Shown here: positions 6,285 through 64,000 of the stretch, one piece after another
Layout of the letters: every line of letters begins with the position of its first letter
Position numbering within the stretch: the first letter of the stretch is position 1
Origin: Lysobacter oculi
GTDB lineage: Bacteria; Pseudomonadota; Gammaproteobacteria; Xanthomonadales; Xanthomonadaceae
NCBI RefSeq assembly: GCF_003293695.1
Contig: NZ_CP029556.1
Location: 382,001 to 446,000 of the forward strand
DNA: 64,000 nt
Direction: 5' to 3'
The notes under the pieces: generated by a model
Seen by the model: the letters and a program-made list of their open reading frames with translations, nothing else
Told to the model about the DNA's origin: nothing
Database searches by the model: none
Translations under genes and position numbers: made by a program

Positions 6285-7465
6285 TCAGGGTTTCGCGCCG
6301 GCTTCGACGGCGGTCCAGACGCGCAGCAGGTTGGCGCCCATGACTTTGCGGATGTCGGCATCGGACAGGCCCGCTTCCTGCAGGGCGGCGATCAGGTTGG
6401 GATAGTCGGCGACGGTGCGCAGGCCATCGGGCAGGGCGCCGCCGACGCCATCGAAATCCGAGCCGATGCCGACGTGGTCGGCGCCGATCAGCTTCACCGC
6501 GTAGACGATCTGCGCGACGACCGCATCGATGCCGGTCGGCGGCACCGCGTGTGCGGCGTCCCAGGCCTTGCTCCAGGCGGCTTCGTCCTGCGTAGGTTGG
6601 CCGGCCGCGCGGGCGGCGGCGTTGCGGGCCTGCAATGCAGCGGATTCGCGGAATTTTTCCTGCATGTCGGCGGCGGCTTTCGGGTTGACGAAGCCGGTGC
6701 CGAAGGTGATCTGCACCACGCCATCCTTCGCCGCGATGGCCTTCGCCACTTCATCGCTGGCGTTGCGCTCGAAGCCGGGCGTGAAGTGGCGCATGCCGGA
6801 ATGCGTGGCGACGACCGGCACGCGGCTGAGGCGGATCGCTTCCAGCGCCGAGGCATCCGACAGGTGCGAGACATCGACCATGATGCCGAGGCGGTTCATC
6901 TCGGCCACCACCTCGCGGCCGAACGGCGACAGCCCGTTCCACTTGCGCTCGACGCCGTAGGAGGAGTCGGCGATGCGGTTGGCGGCGCTGTGCGCGAGGG
7001 TGATGTAGCGCACGCCACGCGCATGGAAAAACGCGAGGCGCTTGAGGTCGTCGCCGATCGGCGCGCCGTTCTCCATGCCCATCGGCAGCAGGACGCGGCC
7101 GGGCTTGGACAGACGCTTGATGTCGCGCGGCGATGTCAGCACCGCGAACTTTTCGGGCGCACGTGCGGCCAGCGCCATCACCGCATCGATCTGCTGGTTG
7201 GCGATGTGGAAGGCGCTGCCGTCGGCGTCCTGCTTGGGTGAGGTGTAGACCGACATGAAGGCGATATCCAGACCGCCGGCCCGTGCCTTCGGCCAGTCGA
7301 ACTCGCGGTCGGTATCGGTGGCGAGGTCGCGCCAGGCATCCATCAATTCGCCGGGGGCGTCGATATGGGTATCGACGATCACGGCGCTCTGCGCCAGTTT
7401 GCGCGAAGCGTCGGTGGCCTGTGCCTGCGCGATACCGACACACAGGAAAAGAGCGGCAGCGAGGC

Positions 7466-7478
<13 letters not shown>
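6285..7478 (-). CDS. Exported M19 (renal dipeptidase-like) peptidase
   Basis: Zinc dipeptidase of the membrane-dipeptidase family, expected in the periplasm. A signal peptide covers about 1-20 (ending AQAQA). Metal ligands are seen in order: H38 and D40 in VDTHIDAPG, an Glu in PMGMENG, His in the DVSHLSD segment and His in VATHSGMRH. The 397-residue length fits. Its first 13 bases overlap the end of hutI on the same strand, which suggests translational coupling with the histidine pathway gene; M19 enzymes can release free amino acids from dipeptides, but a specific link to histidine supply is only inference. Confidence 0.92.
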
Positions 7479-8698
<1,220 letters not shown>

Positions 8699-8704
8699 GC
8701 CCGC

Positions 8705-8710
8705 ATTCTA
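8705..8710 (-). promoter_or_regulatory. -10 element of hutI, leaderless spacing
   Basis: TAGAAT on the minus strand, six bases, then the hutI ATG at 8698. The arrangement is the same as before lpxH. Confidence 0.5.
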
Positions 8711-8721
8711 TGGCTTTGCGC

Positions 8722-8727
8722 CAGAAT
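8722..8727 (+). promoter_or_regulatory. -10-like element of hutF, leaderless spacing
   Basis: CAGAAT, six bases, then the hutF ATG at 8734. The first base departs from the -10 consensus, so the call is weaker than for hutI. Confidence 0.35.
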
Positions 8728-8733
8728 GGCGGC

Positions 8734-9963
8734 ATGCACGCAATCCCACATACCGACGCGGGCTGGCAGCTTCCCGGCATCGCCAACCTGCATTCGCATG
8801 CCTTCCAGCGCGCGATGGCCGGCATGGCCGAACGCCAGGGCGACCCCAATGATTCGTTCTGGACCTGGCGCGAAACCATGTACGCGATGGCCGCGCGCTT
8901 CACGCCCGAGCTGCTGCGCGATGTCGCCGCGCAGCTCTACGTGGAGATGCTGGAAGCCGGCTACACCACGGTGTGCGAATTCCACTACCTGCATCACCGC
9001 GCCGATGGCACGCCGCATCCCGATGCCGCGGCGATGTCGAATGCGTTGATCGAAGCCGCGCGCGACACAGGCATCCGATTGACCTTGCTGCCGGTGCTGT
9101 ACATGACCGGCGGTTTCGACGGCCGTGCGCTGTCCGAGCGCCAGCGCCGCTTCGGGCACGACATCGATGGCTATCTGCGCCTGCTCGACACCTTGCGTGC
9201 ATCGGCGAGCGACACGCTGCAGATCGGCTGCGCGCTGCACAGCCTGCGCGCGGTGCCGGCGGCGGCGATGCGCGAGGTGCTGGCCGCGTTGCCGGCCGAC
9301 AGCCGCATCCACATCCACATCGCCGAACAGGTGGCGGAGGTGGAGGAATGCATCGCGCTGCGCGGCGCGCGCCCGGTGCGCTGGCTGCTGGACCACGCGA
9401 ATGTCGATGCGCACTGGACGCTGGTGCACGCGACGCATCTGGACGCAGGCGAGGTGCGCGATGTCGCCGCATCACAAGCGACGGTCGCCATCTGCACCAC
9501 GACCGAGGCGAATCTCGGCGACGGACTGTTCCCGCTGCGCGACTACCTGGATGCCGGCGGTCGCTGGGGCATCGGTTCGGATTCGCACATCAGCGTGTCG
9601 CCGGTGGAAGAACTGCGCTGGCTGGAATACGGGCAACGGCTGGTCACGCAGCGTCGCAACATCGCCAGTTCGATCACGATGCCGAGCGTCGGCGACACCT
9701 TGTTGCAAGGTGCATGGACGAGCGCGGCGGATTCGACCGGTTTCGATGTGCGCGACGAGGTCGTGCTGGACGCGGAGGCCGCGACCCTGACCGGCGCGAC
9801 CGAAGCCGACATCGCCGACCGTTGGCTGTTCGCCGGCAACCGCAACGTGGTGCGCGAGGTGACGGTGGCCGGGCAGCGCGTGGTGGCCGATGGTCGCCAC
9901 AGGCGGCGCGATGAAACCCTGCGCGCTTACCTCAGCGCCATCAATACGCTGCTGGCGCGCTGA
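8734..9963 (+). CDS. hutF: Formimidoylglutamate deiminase, short N-terminus
   Basis: Converts N-formimino-L-glutamate to N-formyl-L-glutamate and ammonia, the branch of histidine degradation used by pseudomonads and xanthomonads. The signature NLHSHAFQRAMAG holds the metal pair H20/H22; HIHIAEQ and IGSDSHIS give further ligands. The 409-residue protein starts only 19 residues before NLHSH, whereas family members I know have around 50-60 residues there that form part of a small beta domain. An in-frame stop just upstream prevents a longer start, so the N-terminus is really short. It is divergent from hutI. Confidence 0.93.
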   Translation: MHAIPHTDAGWQLPGIANLHSHAFQRAMAGMAERQGDPNDSFWTWRETMYAMAARFTPELLRDVAAQLYVEMLEAGYTTVCEFHYLHHRADGTPHPDAAAMSNALIEAARDTGIRLTLLPVLYMTGGFDGRALSERQRRFGHDIDGYLRLLDTLRASASDTLQIGCALHSLRAVPAAAMREVLAALPADSRIHIHIAEQVAEVEECIALRGARPVRWLLDHANVDAHWTLVHATHLDAGEVRDVAASQATVAICTTTEANLGDGLFPLRDYLDAGGRWGIGSDSHISVSPVEELRWLEYGQRLVTQRRNIASSITMPSVGDTLLQGAWTSAADSTGFDVRDEVVLDAEAATLTGATEADIADRWLFAGNRNVVREVTVAGQRVVADGRHRRRDETLRAYLSAINTLLAR

Positions 9964-56725: not shown

Positions 56726-57130
56726 ATGCAGTCAGCATCACCACCCACGGAAATGCGACTGGATGCGTGGCTTTGGGTAGCGCGCTTCTTCAAGACGCGT
56801 GGCCTGGCGAAGGAAGCGATCGAGCACGGGCGCGTGCAGGTTGAAGGGCAGGCGGCGAAACCTTCGCGACTCGTCAAGCCGGGTTTGGGGCTGAAAATCC
56901 GTAAAGGTGATGAAGTCTTCGAGGTGAAGATCGCGGACTTGGCGCCCACCCGAGGCCCTGCCCGCGAGGCACAGAAGCTGTATGAAGAAAGCGAGGCCTC
57001 CCGCGCACTGCGCGAAAGCCAGAAGGCCGAGATGCGGGCGGCGAGGGCGGGTTACAGCCCACCGGAAACCAAGCCCGACAAGCGTGCCAGGCGACTGATT
57101 CGGGCGCTGGGGGATATCGATGCGATGTGA
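56726..57130 (+). CDS. hslR: RNA-binding heat shock protein Hsp15
   Basis: 134 residues with an S4 RNA-binding domain (MRLDAWLWVARFFKTRGLAKEAI region, about 10-32) and a basic tail. In E. coli Hsp15 binds free 50S subunits carrying a stuck nascent chain. The ATG at 56726 is chosen; MRLDAWLW at 56753 is an alternative and has equal support. Last core-genome gene before the low-GC integron. Confidence 0.9.
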   Translation: MQSASPPTEMRLDAWLWVARFFKTRGLAKEAIEHGRVQVEGQAAKPSRLVKPGLGLKIRKGDEVFEVKIADLAPTRGPAREAQKLYEESEASRALRESQKAEMRAARAGYSPPETKPDKRARRLIRALGDIDAM

Positions 57131-57541
57131 CTGCGCCGGCCATCCTTGTGCTGGTGCAGTCTCCTTCGTTCGGAGCAGATCAACGCAGGGCCTGCAACCG
57201 GCACGTTCTATCAGTAATTGTTCATGAGCCTGCAGTTGGTCCTGTATCTGCTGCTGCATTCGGCTGTTGAGGGACGCGTGCCGCTTTGTCGTTGATCTGC
57301 TTGGGCTATTACGCAGCCTGCGTCCTTTCGGCGGTCCTTGTGGCACAGCAAGGCAGCTGCGATACCGCCGCAGATGAGTAAGCGAGGCCCAGGCGTTTGA
57401 CGTCTTCCCTTGAGATTGCGAAGGGATCTTGAGCGTGTAATTCAACACTGGGGCGGACATTTCCCTGTCTTCAGATGCGGCTCTGCGCTGCACGCAATCA
57501 CATGAACCGGCGTAGTGAAGCAATGTCGTCTTTGATAGGGA
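57131..57541. other. 411-base gap between hslR and intI, no gene recognised
   Basis: Intermediate GC. On the minus strand a frame is open across most of it and could encode a Gln-rich helix (RMQQQIQDQLQAHEQLLIER), but that frame continues antisense through hslR and has no clear start or family, so I read it as at most a remnant. No attC or attI-like pair of core sites and no terminator for intI were seen. It may hold the scar of the integron's insertion. Confidence 0.5.
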
Positions 57542-58510
57542 CTACGCGCGCATGAGGGAATCGAACGGGCTCACGGCAGAGATTGCCTCGTTATCGTTGA
57601 TATGGGCATAGATCATGGTGGTATTCAAATCTTTATGTCCCAGGAGTTTCTGAATCGTCCGAATGTCAGTGCCGGCCTTCAATAGATGCGTGGCAAACGA
57701 GTGCCTGAGTACGTGTGGTGTTACACGCTTCAATATCCCTGCATTCTTGGCGGCCAGCTGTACGGATCTCTGAATGGTCGAAATGTTGACATGCCAGCGG
57801 CCGCTGATACCGGAGATGCTGTCGCGGAATGTGGCACGAGACGGAAATACGAACTGCCAAATGAAATCCCTGCTCATCTTCTGCTTACGACGGCCGTAGG
57901 ACTCTGGCATTACGCAACTCCCAAGTCCGTTTCTGAGATCGTCGGTATGCAATCGTTTGGCCAGCATCAATTGATTTCGAAGTGAGTGCTTGAGATTGAT
58001 CGGAAGTAGCGTGAGTCGATCCTTACGGCCTTTTCCGTCCCGCACCATCACCCTTGATGCTCCGAAGTCGATGTCCTTCACCCGCAAAGAAAGTGCTTCG
58101 GATATTCTCAGCCCGGCACCATAAGTCAATTCACAGATCAGGCGCGCTGGCTGAGAAAGTTGGCTGAAAAGCGTGGTGATCTCCGCTTTGCTAAGCACCA
58201 CGGGTATGCGGTTGTAGCGCTTCGCCCGGATCGCGTCGACGGTCCCGAGTTCTTTTTCGAGCACATGTCGATAGAGAAACTGTATTGCAGCGAGGGCTTG
58301 GTTCTGGGTCGACGCGGATACCTTTTGACTCTTGGCTAAAAAGGTGAGGTAGGCTGCAACCTCCGCTCTTCCCATCTCATTTGGATGGCGCATTCGATGA
58401 AACACGATAAAACTTCGCACCCAATACGCGTACACACTTTTCGTTGATCTGGACAAGCCACGAGTTGTGATTTTGTCGACAAGTTGAATCAACAAGCGTG
58501 GTTTCGTCAT
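57542..58510 (-). CDS. intI: Integron integrase IntI
   Basis: Tyrosine recombinase of 322 residues. N-terminal SAM-like domain (about 10-95), catalytic domain with Arg in TYGAGLRISEALSL (about 130-143), HxxR in TPHVLRHSFATHLL (about 267-280) and Tyr in TTMIYAH (about 301-307). The extra stretch WQFVFPSRATF and QRSVQLAAKNAGILKRVTPH, between patches, is the IntI-specific insert that separates it from XerC/D. Length fits. The ATG is preceded by GGAG buried in a hairpin. It is co-oriented with the cassettes. Confidence 0.94.
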   Translation of the reverse strand: MTKPRLLIQLVDKITTRGLSRSTKSVYAYWVRSFIVFHRMRHPNEMGRAEVAAYLTFLAKSQKVSASTQNQALAAIQFLYRHVLEKELGTVDAIRAKRYNRIPVVLSKAEITTLFSQLSQPARLICELTYGAGLRISEALSLRVKDIDFGASRVMVRDGKGRKDRLTLLPINLKHSLRNQLMLAKRLHTDDLRNGLGSCVMPESYGRRKQKMSRDFIWQFVFPSRATFRDSISGISGRWHVNISTIQRSVQLAAKNAGILKRVTPHVLRHSFATHLLKAGTDIRTIQKLLGHKDLNTTMIYAHINDNEAISAVSPFDSLMRA

Positions 58511-58514
58511 TGCG

Positions 58515-58534
58515 AGACTCCGTGTGTGGAGTCT
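58515..58534 (-). promoter_or_regulatory. Hairpin enclosing the intI ribosome binding site
   Basis: Perfect 7-bp arms AGACTCC and GGAGTCT around six bases, ending four bases before the intI ATG. On the message the 3' arm contains GGAG, eight bases before AUG, so the fold would hide it. As DNA it could also be an operator. No LexA-like box seen. Confidence 0.65.
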
Positions 58535-58562
58535 TTACGTTAGCGATAGTTGAATTAATGCG

Positions 58563-58670
58563 ATTTAACGCCTGAGTTAAGCCGGGCCGCTTTGCGGCCG
58601 AGCGATGTGCTAAACGCTAGCACATAAGTCGAGGCCGCGAAGCGGGCTCGGCTTGAACGAATTGTTAGAC
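58563..58670 (-). repeat. attC site 1 (next to intI)
   Basis: 108 bases from ATTTAAC to GTTAGAC on the plus strand. On the minus strand it opens GTCTAAC, has CGTTCAAGCCG and CGGCTTAACTCAGGC as inner arms, and ends in core GTTAAAT. That last core differs from the GTTAGGY of the others and marks the end of the array. Confidence 0.92.
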
Positions 58671-58672
58671 GT

Positions 58673-59206
58673 TTACATTTTTATATTTCGCTGTTTAAGG
58701 TGGCGGGCGTAAGCGAAAGCGTCTTCTGCTTTGTCAAAGTGCATTTCGCCGACGGCATAATATCGGCCGTTGTACGCGATCCCTTCTTGTGCCATCAGCT
58801 CTGCGTGTGGATGTTTAACTGTCGATGGATCTACCAGTAATTCTTTACTCGCGGAGACGACCCAAAGAGTGTATGCGCCGACAATCGTTCCTATTGGAAA
58901 TGCCAATAGTGAGATGATGCTGACTATCATTAGTCCAGTCATATCTTTCTCTCCCGCAAGTAATTTCTTTCCTCCTGATATTTGAGTTATTGAGAAAGTA
59001 AGTTGTAGAGCTGCCAACACGAACGCCAAAAGGCCTAGTGATCTGATCCAGTCTCCAGCGGTGTCTCCGGCCGTCAAGTCTTTTATGCTCCCGCCGGATG
59101 CGGCGTAAAATATAAAAATCAATGAGCATGCCAGTACGGTCAATCCAATGCCGATCCAGCCCAAAATAATGTTGAATTGCGCCGCTAGTTTTAGATGATT
59201 TTGCAT
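58673..59206 (-). CDS. Cassette protein with three membrane segments
   Basis: 177 residues. Membrane segments at about 12-34, 53-75 and 90-115, then a soluble C-terminal tail (about 118-177) ending YAVGEMHFDKAEDAFAYARHL. No family recognised. GGAAG lies six bases before the ATG. It is the last cassette before intI and has the longest leader (115 bases), which might carry a promoter though none is convincing. Its stop is two bases before the attC. Confidence 0.75.
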   Translation of the reverse strand: MQNHLKLAAQFNIILGWIGIGLTVLACSLIFIFYAASGGSIKDLTAGDTAGDWIRSLGLLAFVLAALQLTFSITQISGGKKLLAGEKDMTGLMIVSIISLLAFPIGTIVGAYTLWVVSASKELLVDPSTVKHPHAELMAQEGIAYNGRYYAVGEMHFDKAEDAFAYARHLKQRNIKM

Positions 59207-59321
59207 GTGAAGCTTCCAAGAGCTGATGTATTCTGGTGATTATTTCTTTAACGCGAGCGCGCTAGGTTCACAGCCCCATGATTTTCATTGGTGCATGCTC
59301 TCTACTGAACGACATCCCAAC

Positions 59322-59430
59322 GTCTAACGCCTGAGTTAAGCCGGCCCGATTTGCGGCCACGGCTGAGTGACCATCTTACGGCGCTCTGCCGAGGCCGCGA
59401 AGCGGGCTCGGCTTGAACGAATTGTTAGGT
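59322..59430 (-). repeat. attC site 2
   Basis: 109 bases from GTCTAAC to GTTAGGT on the plus strand. Outer arms match the other sites; the centre (GCTGAGTGACCATCTTACGGCGC) is its own. It supplies the last codons and stop of the next cassette gene. Confidence 0.9.
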
Positions 59431-59990
59431 GGCGGGCTCGTTAACGTGAACCTGACGCCATCTGCTGCCAGTTCTGTTGGGGTGAGCCAGAGAATGGAGT
59501 TGGGTGGAACCTTGCGGGCTTTAGCGAGCAAGCGTTCGGAGAACCCCGCGTGGCGCAGCATGTCATCTGCCAATTTCATGCGGGCGGGAGATGCGATGGC
59601 TTCAAATGCGCCAGGTGCCTTTTTGACGGGAATGCCGGCATGTAACCCAAGGCGAGCAGTTGCTGTGAGCTCTCGCCGATCAGTGGCAGCCCACAGGCCG
59701 ACGCATGCGCTGGCGCATCTCCCAGCGACGCGAATAGTGATTCCGTGCGTATTTAACAGTTGCGCTGTGCGCTTGGCCTCCAGGGTCTTGCCGCCAGTGC
59801 TCTCGATGTAAACACGTTTTAGGTTCGGACTTCTGGCGATTGCTTTGCGCATTTCAGCCTCGAATCCATCAGTGATACGCCCGAAAGCCATGAATTGTTG
59901 TAACGGCTCTGCGGGGATGATCTTGAACTGGGGCTCGGAGGCAATTGCTGGAGATATGAGAACTGCCAGCAAGATAGCGAGAGTCTTCAC
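59376..59990 (-). CDS. ClpP-like periplasmic protein (COG3904-like), cassette gene
   Basis: 204 residues with a signal peptide (MKTLAILLAVLISPAIAS). The body matches exported ClpP/crotonase-fold proteins: GRITDGFEAEMRKAI, RVYIESTGG and then GRCASACVGLWAATDRREL, where the Ser between two Cys is the likely nucleophile, and LGLHAG with a conserved His. The GTG start at 59990 is chosen because upstream codons are attC. The frame has no stop before attC 2 and takes its last 17 residues (PNNSFKPSPLRGLGRAP) from it. Confidence 0.78.
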   Translation of the reverse strand: MKTLAILLAVLISPAIASEPQFKIIPAEPLQQFMAFGRITDGFEAEMRKAIARSPNLKRVYIESTGGKTLEAKRTAQLLNTHGITIRVAGRCASACVGLWAATDRRELTATARLGLHAGIPVKKAPGAFEAIASPARMKLADDMLRHAGFSERLLAKARKVPPNSILWLTPTELAADGVRFTLTSPPPNNSFKPSPLRGLGRAP

Positions 59991-59995
59991 AAGCC

Positions 59996-60103
59996 ACCTA
60001 ACGCCTGAATTAAGCCGCGCCGCTTTGCGGCCGAGCGATGTGCTAAACGCTAGCACATAAGTCGAGGCCGCGAAGCGGGCTCGGCTTGAACGAATTGTTA
60101 GGC
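59996..60103 (-). repeat. attC site 3
   Basis: 108 bases from ACCTAAC to GTTAGGC on the plus strand. Nearly identical to attC 1, 7 and 8 over its whole length, including the central GTGCTAAACGCTAGCAC hairpin. Confidence 0.93.
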
Positions 60104-60391
60104 TGCGTGCATTTCGAGTTTGACAACCCGATTGAGATTGACAGTCTTACGAGCAGTCCAAAGGTCGTGATTGTCTTGCATGGCGAGCCAGCTTTCCGGC
60201 GTACGTCCAAGCGTCTTGGATAGGCGCAGAGCCATTTCTGGAGTGATCCGGCTGGAGCCATTGAGCACGCGGCTCAAGGTAGACGCAGCGACGTCCAGCT
60301 TAGCCGCAAGTTCACGACCACTAATCCCGTTCGGCTCCAGGTAGATGCCAGTGATGAACTCACCGGGGTGGGGAGGATTGTGCATGCTCAT
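60098..60391 (-). CDS. higA: HigA-type antitoxin, cassette gene
   Basis: 97 residues, XRE-family helix-turn-helix (about 27-80: GRELAAKLDVAASTLSRVLNGSSRITPEMALRL region) with the HPGEFITGIYLEP start of the VapI/HigA group. It should neutralise HigB and bind the operator before higB. ATG overlaps the higB stop (TAATG). Its own stop TAA lies in the attC core GCCTAAC. Confidence 0.95.
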   Translation of the reverse strand: MSMHNPPHPGEFITGIYLEPNGISGRELAAKLDVAASTLSRVLNGSSRITPEMALRLSKTLGRTPESWLAMQDNHDLWTARKTVNLNRVVKLEMHAA

Positions 60392-60669
60392 TAGTGATAG
60401 TCCTCATAGTCGAGAACGTAGACGTGTCCGTCTTTGAACTCAAAGGTTAGGCGCCAATTGCCGTTGACCCAGATTGACCAGCGCCCTTTCAATTTGCCCT
60501 TGAGCGGGTGGAGGCCGAATCCGGGAATGTTCAAGTCGTCGATGACTTGGGCTGTGTCCAGGGCAGAAAGCTGAAGTCGAAGCCGTTTAGCGTGGGCTGC
60601 TTGGACGCCAGCGGTGCTGCCACTTTCGTAGAGCTTGGCCAGACCTTTGTGTCGGATCGACTTGATCAT
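60391..60669 (-). CDS. higB: HigB-type toxin, cassette gene
   Basis: 92 residues of the RelE/HigB superfamily, which cuts mRNA on the ribosome. HKGLAKLYESGSTAGV at the start, LHPLKGKLKGRWSIWVNGNWRLTFEF in the core and VLDYEDYH at the end match the HigB host-inhibition group. Toxin precedes antitoxin, the order usual for higBA. A promoter and operator lie in its own 5' region, and the start codon is almost on the predicted start site. Confidence 0.95.
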   Translation of the reverse strand: MIKSIRHKGLAKLYESGSTAGVQAAHAKRLRLQLSALDTAQVIDDLNIPGFGLHPLKGKLKGRWSIWVNGNWRLTFEFKDGHVYVLDYEDYH

Positions 60670-60674
60670 GGCCT

Positions 60675-60706
60675 AGTCTAGCAGCGTGTTGCGCGATGCG
60701 CAACAC
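60675..60706 (-). promoter_or_regulatory. higBA promoter and operator
   Basis: Perfect 9-bp arms GTGTTGCGC (60686-60694) and GCGCAACAC (60698-60706) around GAT. On the minus strand a -35 TTGCGC (60703-60698), 17-base spacer and -10 TAGACT (60680-60675) overlap it, and ATG follows the -10 after five bases. HigA binding here would block transcription. The only clear promoter in the array. Confidence 0.8.
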
Positions 60707-60712
60707 CGCGCA

Positions 60713-60819
60713 GCCTAACGCCTGAGTTAAGCCGACCTGCGTAGTGGCACGGCGATGTGGTACACGCTACCACGTTAGCCGGGCCACGAAGCAGGTTCGG
60801 CTTGAACGAATTGTTAGGC
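60713..60819 (-). repeat. attC site 4
   Basis: 107 bases from GCCTAAC to GTTAGGC on the plus strand. Outer arms as in the other sites; centre with TGTGGTACACGCTACCACG, related only to attC 5. Confidence 0.92.
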
Positions 60820-60824
60820 GGCAC

Positions 60825-61160
60825 TCACATAATTTTCTTCAAGTTTGGTACTAACCGCTGCCAGCCGTCATCTCCAAGTTCTGCGTCGTCAAACACGAGA
60901 TAGATTTCCCACATATTATTTGAAACCCTGTCTTTGGATATGGCATACCCAGCCAAGTTATTTATGGCCTTATCGAGTTCTTCAAAAGGGGCATCTTGAT
61001 TAATAGCTTTTTTGGCTATATGAACAGCCAGTCGATCAATAAGTGGTCCTATTTCATTTTCATGGCACAGTGAAACTATGCTGTTGAACTCATGGATGAA
61101 CGCGTCATCTGGCTTTGAACGAACGCAGATCTGGTAGAGGGTAGCGATGATATCGGGCAT
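60825..61160 (-). CDS. Cassette protein of unknown function
   Basis: 111 residues, acidic and mostly helical, with no signal or membrane segment. Features are two cysteines (C12, C32), an NNLAGYAISKDRVSNNMWEIYLVFDDAE stretch in the second half. Family not recognised; could be a small immunity or antitoxin-like protein, which is a guess. ATG comes four bases after the AGG of the attC core, which may serve as ribosome binding site. Confidence 0.65.
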   Translation of the reverse strand: MPDIIATLYQICVRSKPDDAFIHEFNSIVSLCHENEIGPLIDRLAVHIAKKAINQDAPFEELDKAINNLAGYAISKDRVSNNMWEIYLVFDDAELGDDGWQRLVPNLKKIM

Positions 61161-61163
61161 GCC

Positions 61164-61271
61164 GCCTAACGCCTGAGTTAAGCCGCGTTGCGTAGTGGCA
61201 CGGCGTTGTGCTAGAAGCTAGCACATAAGGCCGAGCCACGAAGCGGCGTCGGCTTGAACGAACTGTTAGGT
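61164..61271 (-). repeat. attC site 5
   Basis: 108 bases from GCCTAAC to GTTAGGT on the plus strand; shares the GTAGTGGCACGGCG segment with attC 4 and the GCTAGCACATAAG segment with attC 1. Confidence 0.92.
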
Positions 61272-61277
61272 TGCAGG

Positions 61278-61700
61278 CTAGCAGACCACAGATTCGATAC
61301 TGTCGCCTGGAATCCATTTGCCGGATTTGAAAGTGAACTGAATTGAGTCCGTAGTGCCACAGTCTAAATTTGCGTTCTTGTACATCGGCCCGAAAGTCAT
61401 TGTGACCTTGGCCTGATCGCCTGAGATATCAATTTTCCGAACGATTGCGCCCGTAGGTGCAATCTCATACTTGTCGTCTGACAGATTAGATCTGTCCACA
61501 ACAGGGGCGATCATTCTTAGAGCAGCCAAATATTTGTCTGGAACTGTATCCTCGATGGCGAATTTCCTTGGCGCTTCTCTTCGTAAAGTCTGAAAATAGA
61601 TGTCGAGAAGCTGCTTATCTGTTTTAACATCTTGTCTAGGCAAGACATTGCAAGCAGCAAAGGTGATGAGGGAAACGAGAAGGACGCTGCGAGGGACCAT
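61278..61700 (-). CDS. Small exported/lipoprotein cassette gene
   Basis: 140 residues. The hydrophobic N-terminus MVPRSVLLVSLITFAACNV ends in a lipobox-like FAAC (C17). The rest is a soluble beta-rich domain with IAPTGAIVRKIDISGDQAKVTMTFGPMYKNANLDCG and KWIPGDSIESVVC, similar in feel to small periplasmic domains with a disulphide. No family recognised. Start at ATG 61700, since upstream codons belong to attC. Confidence 0.68.
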   Translation of the reverse strand: MVPRSVLLVSLITFAACNVLPRQDVKTDKQLLDIYFQTLRREAPRKFAIEDTVPDKYLAALRMIAPVVDRSNLSDDKYEIAPTGAIVRKIDISGDQAKVTMTFGPMYKNANLDCGTTDSIQFTFKSGKWIPGDSIESVVC

Positions 61701-61708
61701 GATCTGCA

Positions 61709-61768
61709 ACCTAACACCTGAGTTAAGCCGCGCCGCGAAGCGGCGTCGGCTTGGACGAATTGTTAGGC
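61709..61768 (-). repeat. attC site 6, short 60-bp type
   Basis: 60 bases from ACCTAAC to GTTAGGC on the plus strand. The arms TTAAGCCGCGCCGCG / CGGCGTCGGCTTGG fold over a tiny loop. Half the length of the other sites and, from memory, very close to the attC of aadA resistance cassettes. Confidence 0.93.
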
Positions 61769-62059
61769 CGCATGCCTTCGATTCCGCCACATGGCAAACG
61801 CCCGCACTGAGAGAGCGACGCCGGCGAAGACAATCCCCACGAGCGGGCCGCCAAAGATGATGATGCCCGCGAGAACCATACCCGGGCCGTCGCAGGGCGG
61901 AGGGCATTCGCCCGGGCTCGGAAGCGTGAAGTACCAAAGCGCGATTGTTGCCAGATAGCCGGCGGCAAACGCAATCGCGCCAACGGAAAACGCGGACATT
62001 GGCTGGGCGCGCTGCTGCGGCGGCAAGTCGGTGTTCGAGCTTTCGTACGGGTTATCCAT
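61763..62059 (-). CDS. Small membrane protein, cassette gene
   Basis: 98 residues, start MDNPYESS, two membrane segments (about 23-45 and 58-85) and a basic end (RNRRHAA). A PSPGECPPPCDGPG loop with two Cys lies between the segments. MDNPYESS-type starts occur on many small bacterial membrane proteins of unknown role. The stop TAA is inside the attC core. Start at 62059 because the upstream frame is attC. Confidence 0.65.
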   Translation of the reverse strand: MDNPYESSNTDLPPQQRAQPMSAFSVGAIAFAAGYLATIALWYFTLPSPGECPPPCDGPGMVLAGIIIFGGPLVGIVFAGVALSVRAFAMWRNRRHAA

Positions 62060-62073
62060 GATCTGTCGCAGCG

Positions 62074-62181
62074 GCCTAACGCCTGAGTTAAGCCGGGCCG
62101 CTTTGCGGCCGAGCGATGTGCTAAACGCTAGCACATAAGTCGAGGCCGCGAAGCGGGCTCGGCTTGAACGAAATGTTAGGC
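62074..62181 (-). repeat. attC site 7
   Basis: 108 bases from GCCTAAC to GTTAGGC on the plus strand; differs from attC 8 at very few positions (AAATGTT for AATTGTT near the end). Confidence 0.93.
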
Positions 62182-62196
62182 TTCAGACCGAAAGCA

Positions 62197-62493
62197 TCAA
62201 GAAGCTGACCTTGAAGGTCGTTTAACTCTGTAGGATCGAAACAGAGAAACCCATCCACCCAAAATTCCGACAAACCCCAGCAAGATTCCAAAGAGAACAG
62301 TGCCAAAGGCCAGCCATGAAAGGGGTTCGTCAGGGCCGTAATTTATGCTGAAGCCGAACGCAACTCCAACTGCTGCAACTGCAACTCCGAGTAGTGAAAT
62401 TTTCAGCCAATTGCGATAACGGCAACGTGGACAATAAGTGAGGTCTTGCCGGTATGAGAGAGAGCACTTACTACAAGTCGAATAGCCTTTCAT
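62197..62493 (-). CDS. Zinc-ribbon membrane protein, cassette gene
   Basis: 98 residues. An N-terminal zinc ribbon with C7, C10, C21 and C24 (TCSKC and YCPRC), then two membrane segments (about 30-52 and 58-84). The basic tail SYRVKRPSRSAS faces the cytoplasm by the positive-inside rule. Family not recognised. ATG lies eight bases after the AGG of attC 8. Confidence 0.65.
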   Translation of the reverse strand: MKGYSTCSKCSLSYRQDLTYCPRCRYRNWLKISLLGVAVAAVGVAFGFSINYGPDEPLSWLAFGTVLFGILLGFVGILGGWVSLFRSYRVKRPSRSAS

Positions 62494-62500
62494 TTCTGCA

Positions 62501-62608
62501 GCCTAACGCCTGAGTTAAGCCGGGCCGCTTTGCGGCCGAGCGATGTGCTAAACGCTAGCACATAAGTCGAGGCCGCGAAGCGGGCTCGGCTTGAACGAAT
62601 TGTTAGGC
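62501..62608 (-). repeat. attC site 8
   Basis: 108 bases from GCCTAAC to GTTAGGC on the plus strand, same type as attC 1, 3 and 7. Confidence 0.93.
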
Positions 62609-63901
62609 CTCACGCTTTTCATGAGCGCCACGATCCTGGACAAGGAGCTTGTAGTAGTACAGAGATTTGATGACGTGGTGCAAATTGTGCATTTCTCTGA
62701 AAGCCAGAAGGAGGGATCGCATGAATGCTAGAAAGCTGATTTCTTTCCCCTCAGTGGCTGCCAGCCTGCCGCCTTCTGGGTAGTATGTGACGGTCTGTGT
62801 TTCACTGTTGTAGTTGATGTTGTTGTGGGCAACTGCATTGCGTAGGCCGAGATTCAAATCAGTTGTGGCCAAGTTGTACCAACAGTCGTCAAGGTACTTA
62901 AATTTGTCAGACAGCGTTTTCTCTGAAAGCTTTTGCAGGCTACTAAGAGCGCCGCCGTCAATAGCCTTGAAGGAATTGAAATTTCCTCTGTGGTAAAGAT
63001 TGTTGATTCCAGCGACCAATACGATCTGCCGCGCAATTATTTCTAGGATGTCCTTGTAAAGATCTTTCAGGCTGAAAAAGTCCTGAGAGGAGACTCTTCC
63101 CGCTACCAAATCAGACTGTTCGCCTTCGAAAAAATCTAGGAAGAGCGCTGGTCTAAACGGGATCTCCGCATCAAATACGCGCGGGTATATGCGCAAGCAG
63201 TCTCTTTGCAGAGATGTAAGGAATCCAGAGCTGAAGATGTCTTCAATGAACGAATCGAGTTGCTCTCGGTCAAGTTCATACAGAAGTTTCGGTAGCTCCT
63301 CGGATATCTCCTTGCCGTGTTCATGCACCACGAAAGGAAAAAAAGCCTTCGCAATCACTCGATAGAGCGTGGCGTTAAGATCCTGCTGCAGTATGGATTT
63401 CTCTTGCTCTTCGCCAAGGAACTCGGCTGCTCGCTTCTGGAAGAGTTGCTTGTTCGCTCCATGATAGAGATTGATGATTCTCTTTAATTCTTCAGCTTTT
63501 GGATAAAGCTCATTGAGGATGTTGAGCCTTGCGGAATGAAACATGGAGAGTTGAAGCGACTTATTGCGGTCGCCAGTCACCTCATCCAGTTGATTGAGAG
63601 ATGCAAACCACGGAGTTAGGCCAGGCACATAAGCACCAAACATCACCGGGAAGTCGAGGTGAAGATCAACGAACGGATTTGCGCCATCGAATGGCCCGTC
63701 TGGTTGATTGTTTGATGGATGGCATCCGTTGAACGAGAACCCCGACTGGGGAGCATTGGACGTATCTAAAGTCACCTCAATTGATGAATGGCAATGAGGA
63801 CATGAGAACTGAAGTGGTTGAATAAGGCGATTCGAATAGCCGATTCGACAGTCCGTATCTTGCTCGCAAGTTGAGCAAGTGATCGTCATGCATGTGTTCA
63901 T
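62603..63901 (-). CDS. Zinc-ribbon protein with HEPN-like Rx4H motif, cassette gene
   Basis: 432 residues, the largest cassette product seen. The N-terminus has a four-Cys zinc ribbon (C9, C12, C34, C37). The middle (about 70-270) is helical. The C-terminal part (about 275-425) is helical with LGLRNAVAHNNI, an Rx4H motif (R354-H359), the signature of HEPN ribonucleases found in toxins and phage-defence proteins. No transmembrane segments. Start at 63901 (MNTCMTITC) is uncertain; 63889 is an alternative. Its stop TAA lies in the attC core. No known family; a defence RNase is my inference. Confidence 0.72.
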   Translation of the reverse strand: MNTCMTITCSTCEQDTDCRIGYSNRLIQPLQFSCPHCHSSIEVTLDTSNAPQSGFSFNGCHPSNNQPDGPFDGANPFVDLHLDFPVMFGAYVPGLTPWFASLNQLDEVTGDRNKSLQLSMFHSARLNILNELYPKAEELKRIINLYHGANKQLFQKRAAEFLGEEQEKSILQQDLNATLYRVIAKAFFPFVVHEHGKEISEELPKLLYELDREQLDSFIEDIFSSGFLTSLQRDCLRIYPRVFDAEIPFRPALFLDFFEGEQSDLVAGRVSSQDFFSLKDLYKDILEIIARQIVLVAGINNLYHRGNFNSFKAIDGGALSSLQKLSEKTLSDKFKYLDDCWYNLATTDLNLGLRNAVAHNNINYNSETQTVTYYPEGGRLAATEGKEISFLAFMRSLLLAFREMHNLHHVIKSLYYYKLLVQDRGAHEKREA

Positions 63902-63924
63902 TTGGCGAGAAACTCGATAGTGAG

Positions 63925-64000
63925 GCCTAACGCCTGAGTTAAGCCGTGGTGCTGCTCGGCCACAATTGGACAAGAACCTTACCTTAGAAAATTGTGGCCG
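63925..64000 (-). repeat. attC site 9, cut by the window end
   Basis: Begins GCCTAACGCCTGAGTTAAGCCG like the others, then diverges into a different centre with arms CGGCCACAATT (63957-63967) and AATTGTGGCCG (63990-64000). The right-hand core is outside the window, so at least one more cassette is likely. Confidence 0.85.

Follow-up and report, generated by a model that had tools for sequence, protein, structure and literature searches.

An integrase gene apparently of another lineage at the probable tail of a very large chromosomal integron in Lysobacter oculi

The window analysed here is a stretch of 64,000 bases of Lysobacter oculi (G000:C1:382001-446000, from a genome that consists of a single contig of 2,592,821 bases) and ends in an array of integron attC sites, beside which lies an integron integrase gene (intI), here named IntI-L. 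The open reading frame matches the profile TIGR02249 with 374.2 bits (cut-off 265), PDB 2a3v (IntI4) is aligned to residues 7-317 (E 5.9e-66), and the frame is open and full-length. Within the window there are eight whole attC sites and part of a ninth that runs over the window's edge, all on the minus strand (Table 1). A preliminary description of the window took the locus for an inverted integron, in which array, cassette genes and intI share the minus strand and the array terminates at the 5' border of intI, with attI expected at the far end beyond position 64,000 unless the array had been flipped.

Scanning of the whole genome with the attC 5' motif (up to 3 mismatches) gave 109 sites on the reverse strand and 0 on the forward strand, with 0 for a control pattern, and a paired attC search of G000:C1:436001-556000 likewise placed 109 sites on the minus strand and 0 on the plus strand, as had been claimed. 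The sites measure 54 to 106 bases (102 bases in 48 of the 109) and span 98.6 kb (G000:C1:440566-539187); the array continues 93 kb beyond the window. Its distal end (440566) lies 1.4 kb from an hslR-like gene, and attC 1 stops 55 bases before the start codon of IntI-L, in agreement with the earlier observation of an array that ends at the 5' end of a minus-strand intI. That all cassette genes lie on the minus strand holds for most of the 108 cassette intervals, where the longest frame is on this strand, but not for all, as some intervals carry insertion-sequence-like or short frames on the opposite strand.

At the far end of the array lies a second integrase gene, IntI-R (G000:C1:539785-540822, plus strand, 345 amino acids, open frame), which is 47% identical to IntI-L and is accompanied on the opposite strand by a gene that we take, from its sequence, to be mfd. 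A reading of IntI-R as a pseudogene was rejected: the single TGA reported for it is its own stop codon, with none inside. The 7-mer at the cassette start complements exactly the R'' box at the end of the same cassette in 90 of the 108 cassettes; when the ends were re-dealt, 29.6 cassettes on average and at most 40 did so. The cassette nearest to IntI-R obeys this rule (GTTAGAC/GTCTAAC), which sets the junction of its attI, here attI-R, at G000:C1 539449, beyond position 64,000 as had been anticipated; a like sequence stands ahead of the first cassette in the congener G079. IntI-R lies on the plus strand, with the array on its 5' side and on the minus strand, i.e. in the divergent, classical arrangement. 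Since the attI-R junction set by this rule lies at IntI-R, the array belongs by sequence to IntI-R and is classically arranged. With an open intI, a divergent array, an attI between the two and a locus shared with relatives, the array is, as judged from its sequence, the classical sedentary chromosomal integron of IntI-R. The preliminary description had itself named a second intI with a normal attI at the far end as grounds for rejecting its reading; this is what lies there, and the designation as an inverted integron is wrong.

The comparison with related genomes that had been suggested places this integron at a locus shared with congeners. IntI-R has matches at E<=1e-40 in 11 of the 17 genomes of the genus, its own included, the remaining 6 being without a match, and the mfd-like gene has relatives in all 17. 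The IntI-R orthologue adjoins mfd in seven of the ten other matching genomes (G079, G106, G236, G248, G269, G279 and G289), in G248 as a fragment located where a contig ends. Neither intI nor hslR has a match in congener G130, where rplS and mfd are separated by 2.6 kb; this interval holds attC scars with the same direction as in the window genome (top local score 61, with shuffles reaching 46 at most; on the opposite strand 37 against 42). Judged by these scars, the array had the same direction with respect to rplS and mfd in this relative, which has since lost the integron, and no flip is needed to explain the array.

Orientation was tallied for 77 intI, a set that was not drawn at random and comprises 29 best-match loci, the genus loci and the loci of 18 other genomes with at least 2 matches. 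The classical arrangement was found in 56 (the window genome's IntI-R included; 53 distinct, three having been fetched twice), 20 had no detectable attC, and none was mixed or had attC at the 3' side. Among the 57 classified intI with attC the sole non-classical one is IntI-L, with attC on its own strand and at its 5' side. Shuffled control loci gave 0 attC sites.

The best identity of IntI-L within its family is 49% among the matches listed from 297 family genomes, with 185 genomes matching at E<=1e-50, and 369 genomes of the class yielded one other match at E<=1e-92 (48% identity). The nearest relative among the matches listed, self aside, is a metagenome protein with 68% identity, followed by others with 56-58%. 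Plasmid matches came from at least 5000 records, the best among those listed all being below 60% identity and mostly intI1, and a search of viral contigs gave 2 matches only, weak and partial. In a quick tree with support from the Shimodaira-Hasegawa-like approximate likelihood ratio test only, IntI-L and the 68% metagenome protein are joined with support 100 within a clade of IntI-L metagenome matches, and 58 family rows group with IntI-R; the integrase phylogeny proposed in the preliminary description sets IntI-L apart from these rows. The tree contains 60 of the 120 metagenome proteins listed (of 6,890 matches), 55 of the first 60 of 80 genome-contig loci, those with in-frame stops having been dropped, and 71 family rows, some of which are one gene at two loci. 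Because the metagenome proteins were picked as the best matches of IntI-L, they cluster with it partly by choice. The G+C content is 51.5% in IntI-L, 54% (standard deviation 5) in 107 cassettes, 64.8% in IntI-R and 68.1% in window positions 1-56700. By these sequence comparisons IntI-L is an integrase gene of another lineage and not the integrase of the array beside it. As a separate observation, 13 of the 71 family rows form a second intI clade with classical arrays of their own (e.g. L213, L216, L219, L226, L227, L230, L231 and L246), and 19 of the 297 family genomes, the window genome included, have at least 2 intI matches.

We read the window, with a probability of about 0.9, as the distal end of a sedentary chromosomal integron of classical type and very large size, with IntI-L at this tail as an extra integrase of another lineage. 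From established integron biology, IntI-R would recombine attC sites with attI-R, so that new cassettes would enter beside mfd and old ones would end toward hslR. IntI-L would then sit at the oldest end of the array, and most likely came in with the array as a passenger, possibly in the form of a cassette. The gene is placed and oriented as the gene of a last cassette would be: on the cassette strand it starts 58 bases past the cut point in GTTAAAT, i.e. a GTTRRRY core in cassette orientation precedes it, and a frame start within 60 bases of the cut point is found in 82% of the 88 cassette frames of at least 70 amino acids (median 20). This GTTAAAT core is unique among the 109. No promoter-like site was found near IntI-L (0 against 1.5 expected from shuffles). 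In the 411 bases before hslR the best attC similarity is on the expected strand and begins at the IntI-L stop codon. Its local score of 38 was reached by 0 of 60 shuffles, and its global score of 57 over 108 bases by 1 of 500, 0 of 300 and 8 of 400 controls, counts that flatter the stretch since the 108-base segment was chosen with the local alignment in view and scores of up to 61 occur in adjacent segments. This attC-like stretch is suggestive only, a hint of a decayed attC and not a proof.

Several observations weigh against this interpretation. The intI lies apart from mfd in three of the ten matching congeners: that of G046 (70% identity) contains one in-frame TAG and lies about 24 kb from mfd, and those of G149 and G166 (59% identity) are located elsewhere than mfd. 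The hslR-like gene has relatives in 15 of the 17 genus genomes, its own included, and an intact attC was found at none of the 14 other hslR loci, the array adjoining hslR in this genome only; in G259 other genes come after hslR, which speaks against a fixed boundary there. The R'' box predicted for an IntI-L cassette (ATTTAAC) was not found on the minus strand of 436001-440560. The local score of 38 is weak in that it was equalled in 11 of 600 and 5 of 400 cassette-interior controls and in 23 of 400 chromosome controls, and the attC-like stretch folds no better than shuffles (z 0.07 and 0.26). Lastly, an integrase of Lysobacter fragariae (Lysobacteraceae) with 54% identity falls into the broad clade of IntI-L, so that the donor need not be distant and may be a relative.

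If the window is the tail of the IntI-R integron, the most likely origin of IntI-L, at a little under even odds, is uptake at attI-R, either as a whole cassette or within one, its own attC having decayed since. The full course, in which IntI-L moved as a gene cassette, entered at attI-R, was passed along the 99-kb array and became stranded at its tail, is possible but doubtful. As the main alternative, IntI-L could be what is left of a second integron, now empty, whose own attI lies in the leader and which came to stand head-on against the tail of the native array. The full-length, open frame of IntI-L is consistent with such an origin, as is GTTGAAT on the plus strand of the leader (58549-58555), which fits GTTRRRY, would face the array and is a candidate attI core; a single 7-base core, however, does not make an attI, and with 0 attC on the plus strand no cassette has the orientation that this attI would give. 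We regard an empty second integron as unlikely, though it keeps some weight.

Reorientation of the array would be another way to account for the locus. The attC sites and 12 families of duplicated cassettes make a misassembly possible, and a gene located after hslR in G259, by eye uvrB, sits 1.08 Mb away in the window genome, so that the hslR side has been rearranged at some time. A flip of the array or an assembly inversion between hslR and attC 1, both raised in the preliminary description, is nevertheless opposed by the direction of the G130 scars, and IntI-R, attI-R and the array stand in normal order; we consider either event very improbable. The contigs of G079 break off 967 bases beyond hslR and 783 bases ahead of IntI-R and are neutral on this question. 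Least probable is a reverse integron of the Treponema type with IntI-L driving the array. It would agree with intI and cassettes sharing one strand, but the array of Treponema lies downstream of intI (PMC3607928), and here it is at the 5' side of IntI-L, with all 22 attC of locus L009 on that side and 0 at the 3' side; moreover, the attI end of the array is 99 kb off, beside another intI.

Table 1. Features at the right-hand end of the window (positions counted from the first base of the window)
Feature	Position	Strand	Basis or remark
hslR-like gene flanking the distal end	56738..57130	plus	name from the preliminary description
attC-like stretch overlapping and following the IntI-L stop codon, possible decayed attC	57440..57547	minus	scores against controls
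IntI-L, integron integrase gene, 322 amino acids	57542..58510	minus	TIGR02249, PDB 2a3v match, lineage; apparently not the native integrase; at the distal end of the array
IntI-L leader, from the attC 1 cut point (core GTTAAAT) to the start codon	58511..58568	minus	
attC 1, last of the array	58566..58667	minus	paired search; folds on both strands
attC 2	59325..59427	minus	paired search
attC 3	59999..60100	minus	paired search
HigA-like antitoxin and HigB-like toxin cassette	60098..60669	minus	TIGR02607, PF05015
attC 4	60716..60816	minus	paired search
attC 5	61167..61268	minus	paired search
attC 6, short type	61712..61765	minus	paired search
attC 7	62077..62178	minus	paired search
attC 8	62504..62605	minus	paired search
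attC 9, cut by the window end	63928..64000	minus	paired search

Beyond the window the array contains a 38.4-kb prophage between two attC sites (G000:C1:491752-530163), with terminase, portal, major head and tape measure genes. The duplicated cassettes are near-identical within their twelve families, one of which has seven copies, and a 340-amino-acid frame that appears by eye to be insertion-sequence-like occurs, on one strand or the other, in cassettes 9, 12, 19 and 34. An APH-family phosphotransferase cassette lies near attI-R (G000:C1:537438-538232, minus strand; PF01636, 116 bits). PADLOC gave no result for eight cassette proteins. As to the distal regions of congeners, those of G149 and G166 contain relatives of a glyoxalase-like gene that comes after hslR in G079; no attC remnant was found beside that gene (scores of 32 and 30 against shuffle maxima of 39 and 46), and the distal flanks of G046, G149 and G166 show by eye no likeness to the IntI-L leader. 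The relic in G130 (locus L189, 9820-12384) comprises a glyoxalase-like frame and the attC scars, together with four GTTTCAATTC-type repeats, 53-64 bases apart, which by eye resemble a remnant of clustered regularly interspaced short palindromic repeats (CRISPR).

With these results the claimed new integron geometry is removed; the tail of a long array, when viewed alone, imitates one. An integrase of a different lineage, at what would be the oldest end of an array that belongs to another integrase, bears on the mobility of intI genes and on whether integrases can be cassette-borne. If IntI-L travelled as a cassette, cassettes could spread integrases, and two integrases, one per end, may work on one array. 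Among the titles and abstract openings listed in literature searches, none described an intI at the tail of an array or as a cassette.

The superintegrons of Vibrio are also classical sedentary chromosomal integrons. In Xanthomonas, according to PMC12444791, intI is located mostly at ilvD, although certain lineages have an intI that was acquired from other sources. The integron of L. oculi resembles these classical integrons in its divergent intI, the attI between intI and array, a single attC type and a conserved locus, and the foreign intI likewise has a counterpart in what PMC12444791 reports for Xanthomonas; it differs in its position beside mfd instead of ilvD and in the extra intI of another lineage at its tail. 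In the reverse integrons of Treponema, as described in PMC3607928 and PMC7691350, transcription of intI runs toward attI, with the array downstream; the Treponema geometry given in the preliminary description agrees with the former source. IntI-L shares with them the location of intI and cassettes on one strand, but unlike in Treponema the array here starts from another intI and stops on the 5' side of IntI-L. Tandem intI pairs on the same strand occur in two family genomes, at the attI end and beside mfd (L223 of G237, 7019-9008, and L224 of G249, 7903-9892). Like the integron of L. oculi they combine two intI with one array; there the two genes are adjacent at the attI end, whereas here they bracket the array.

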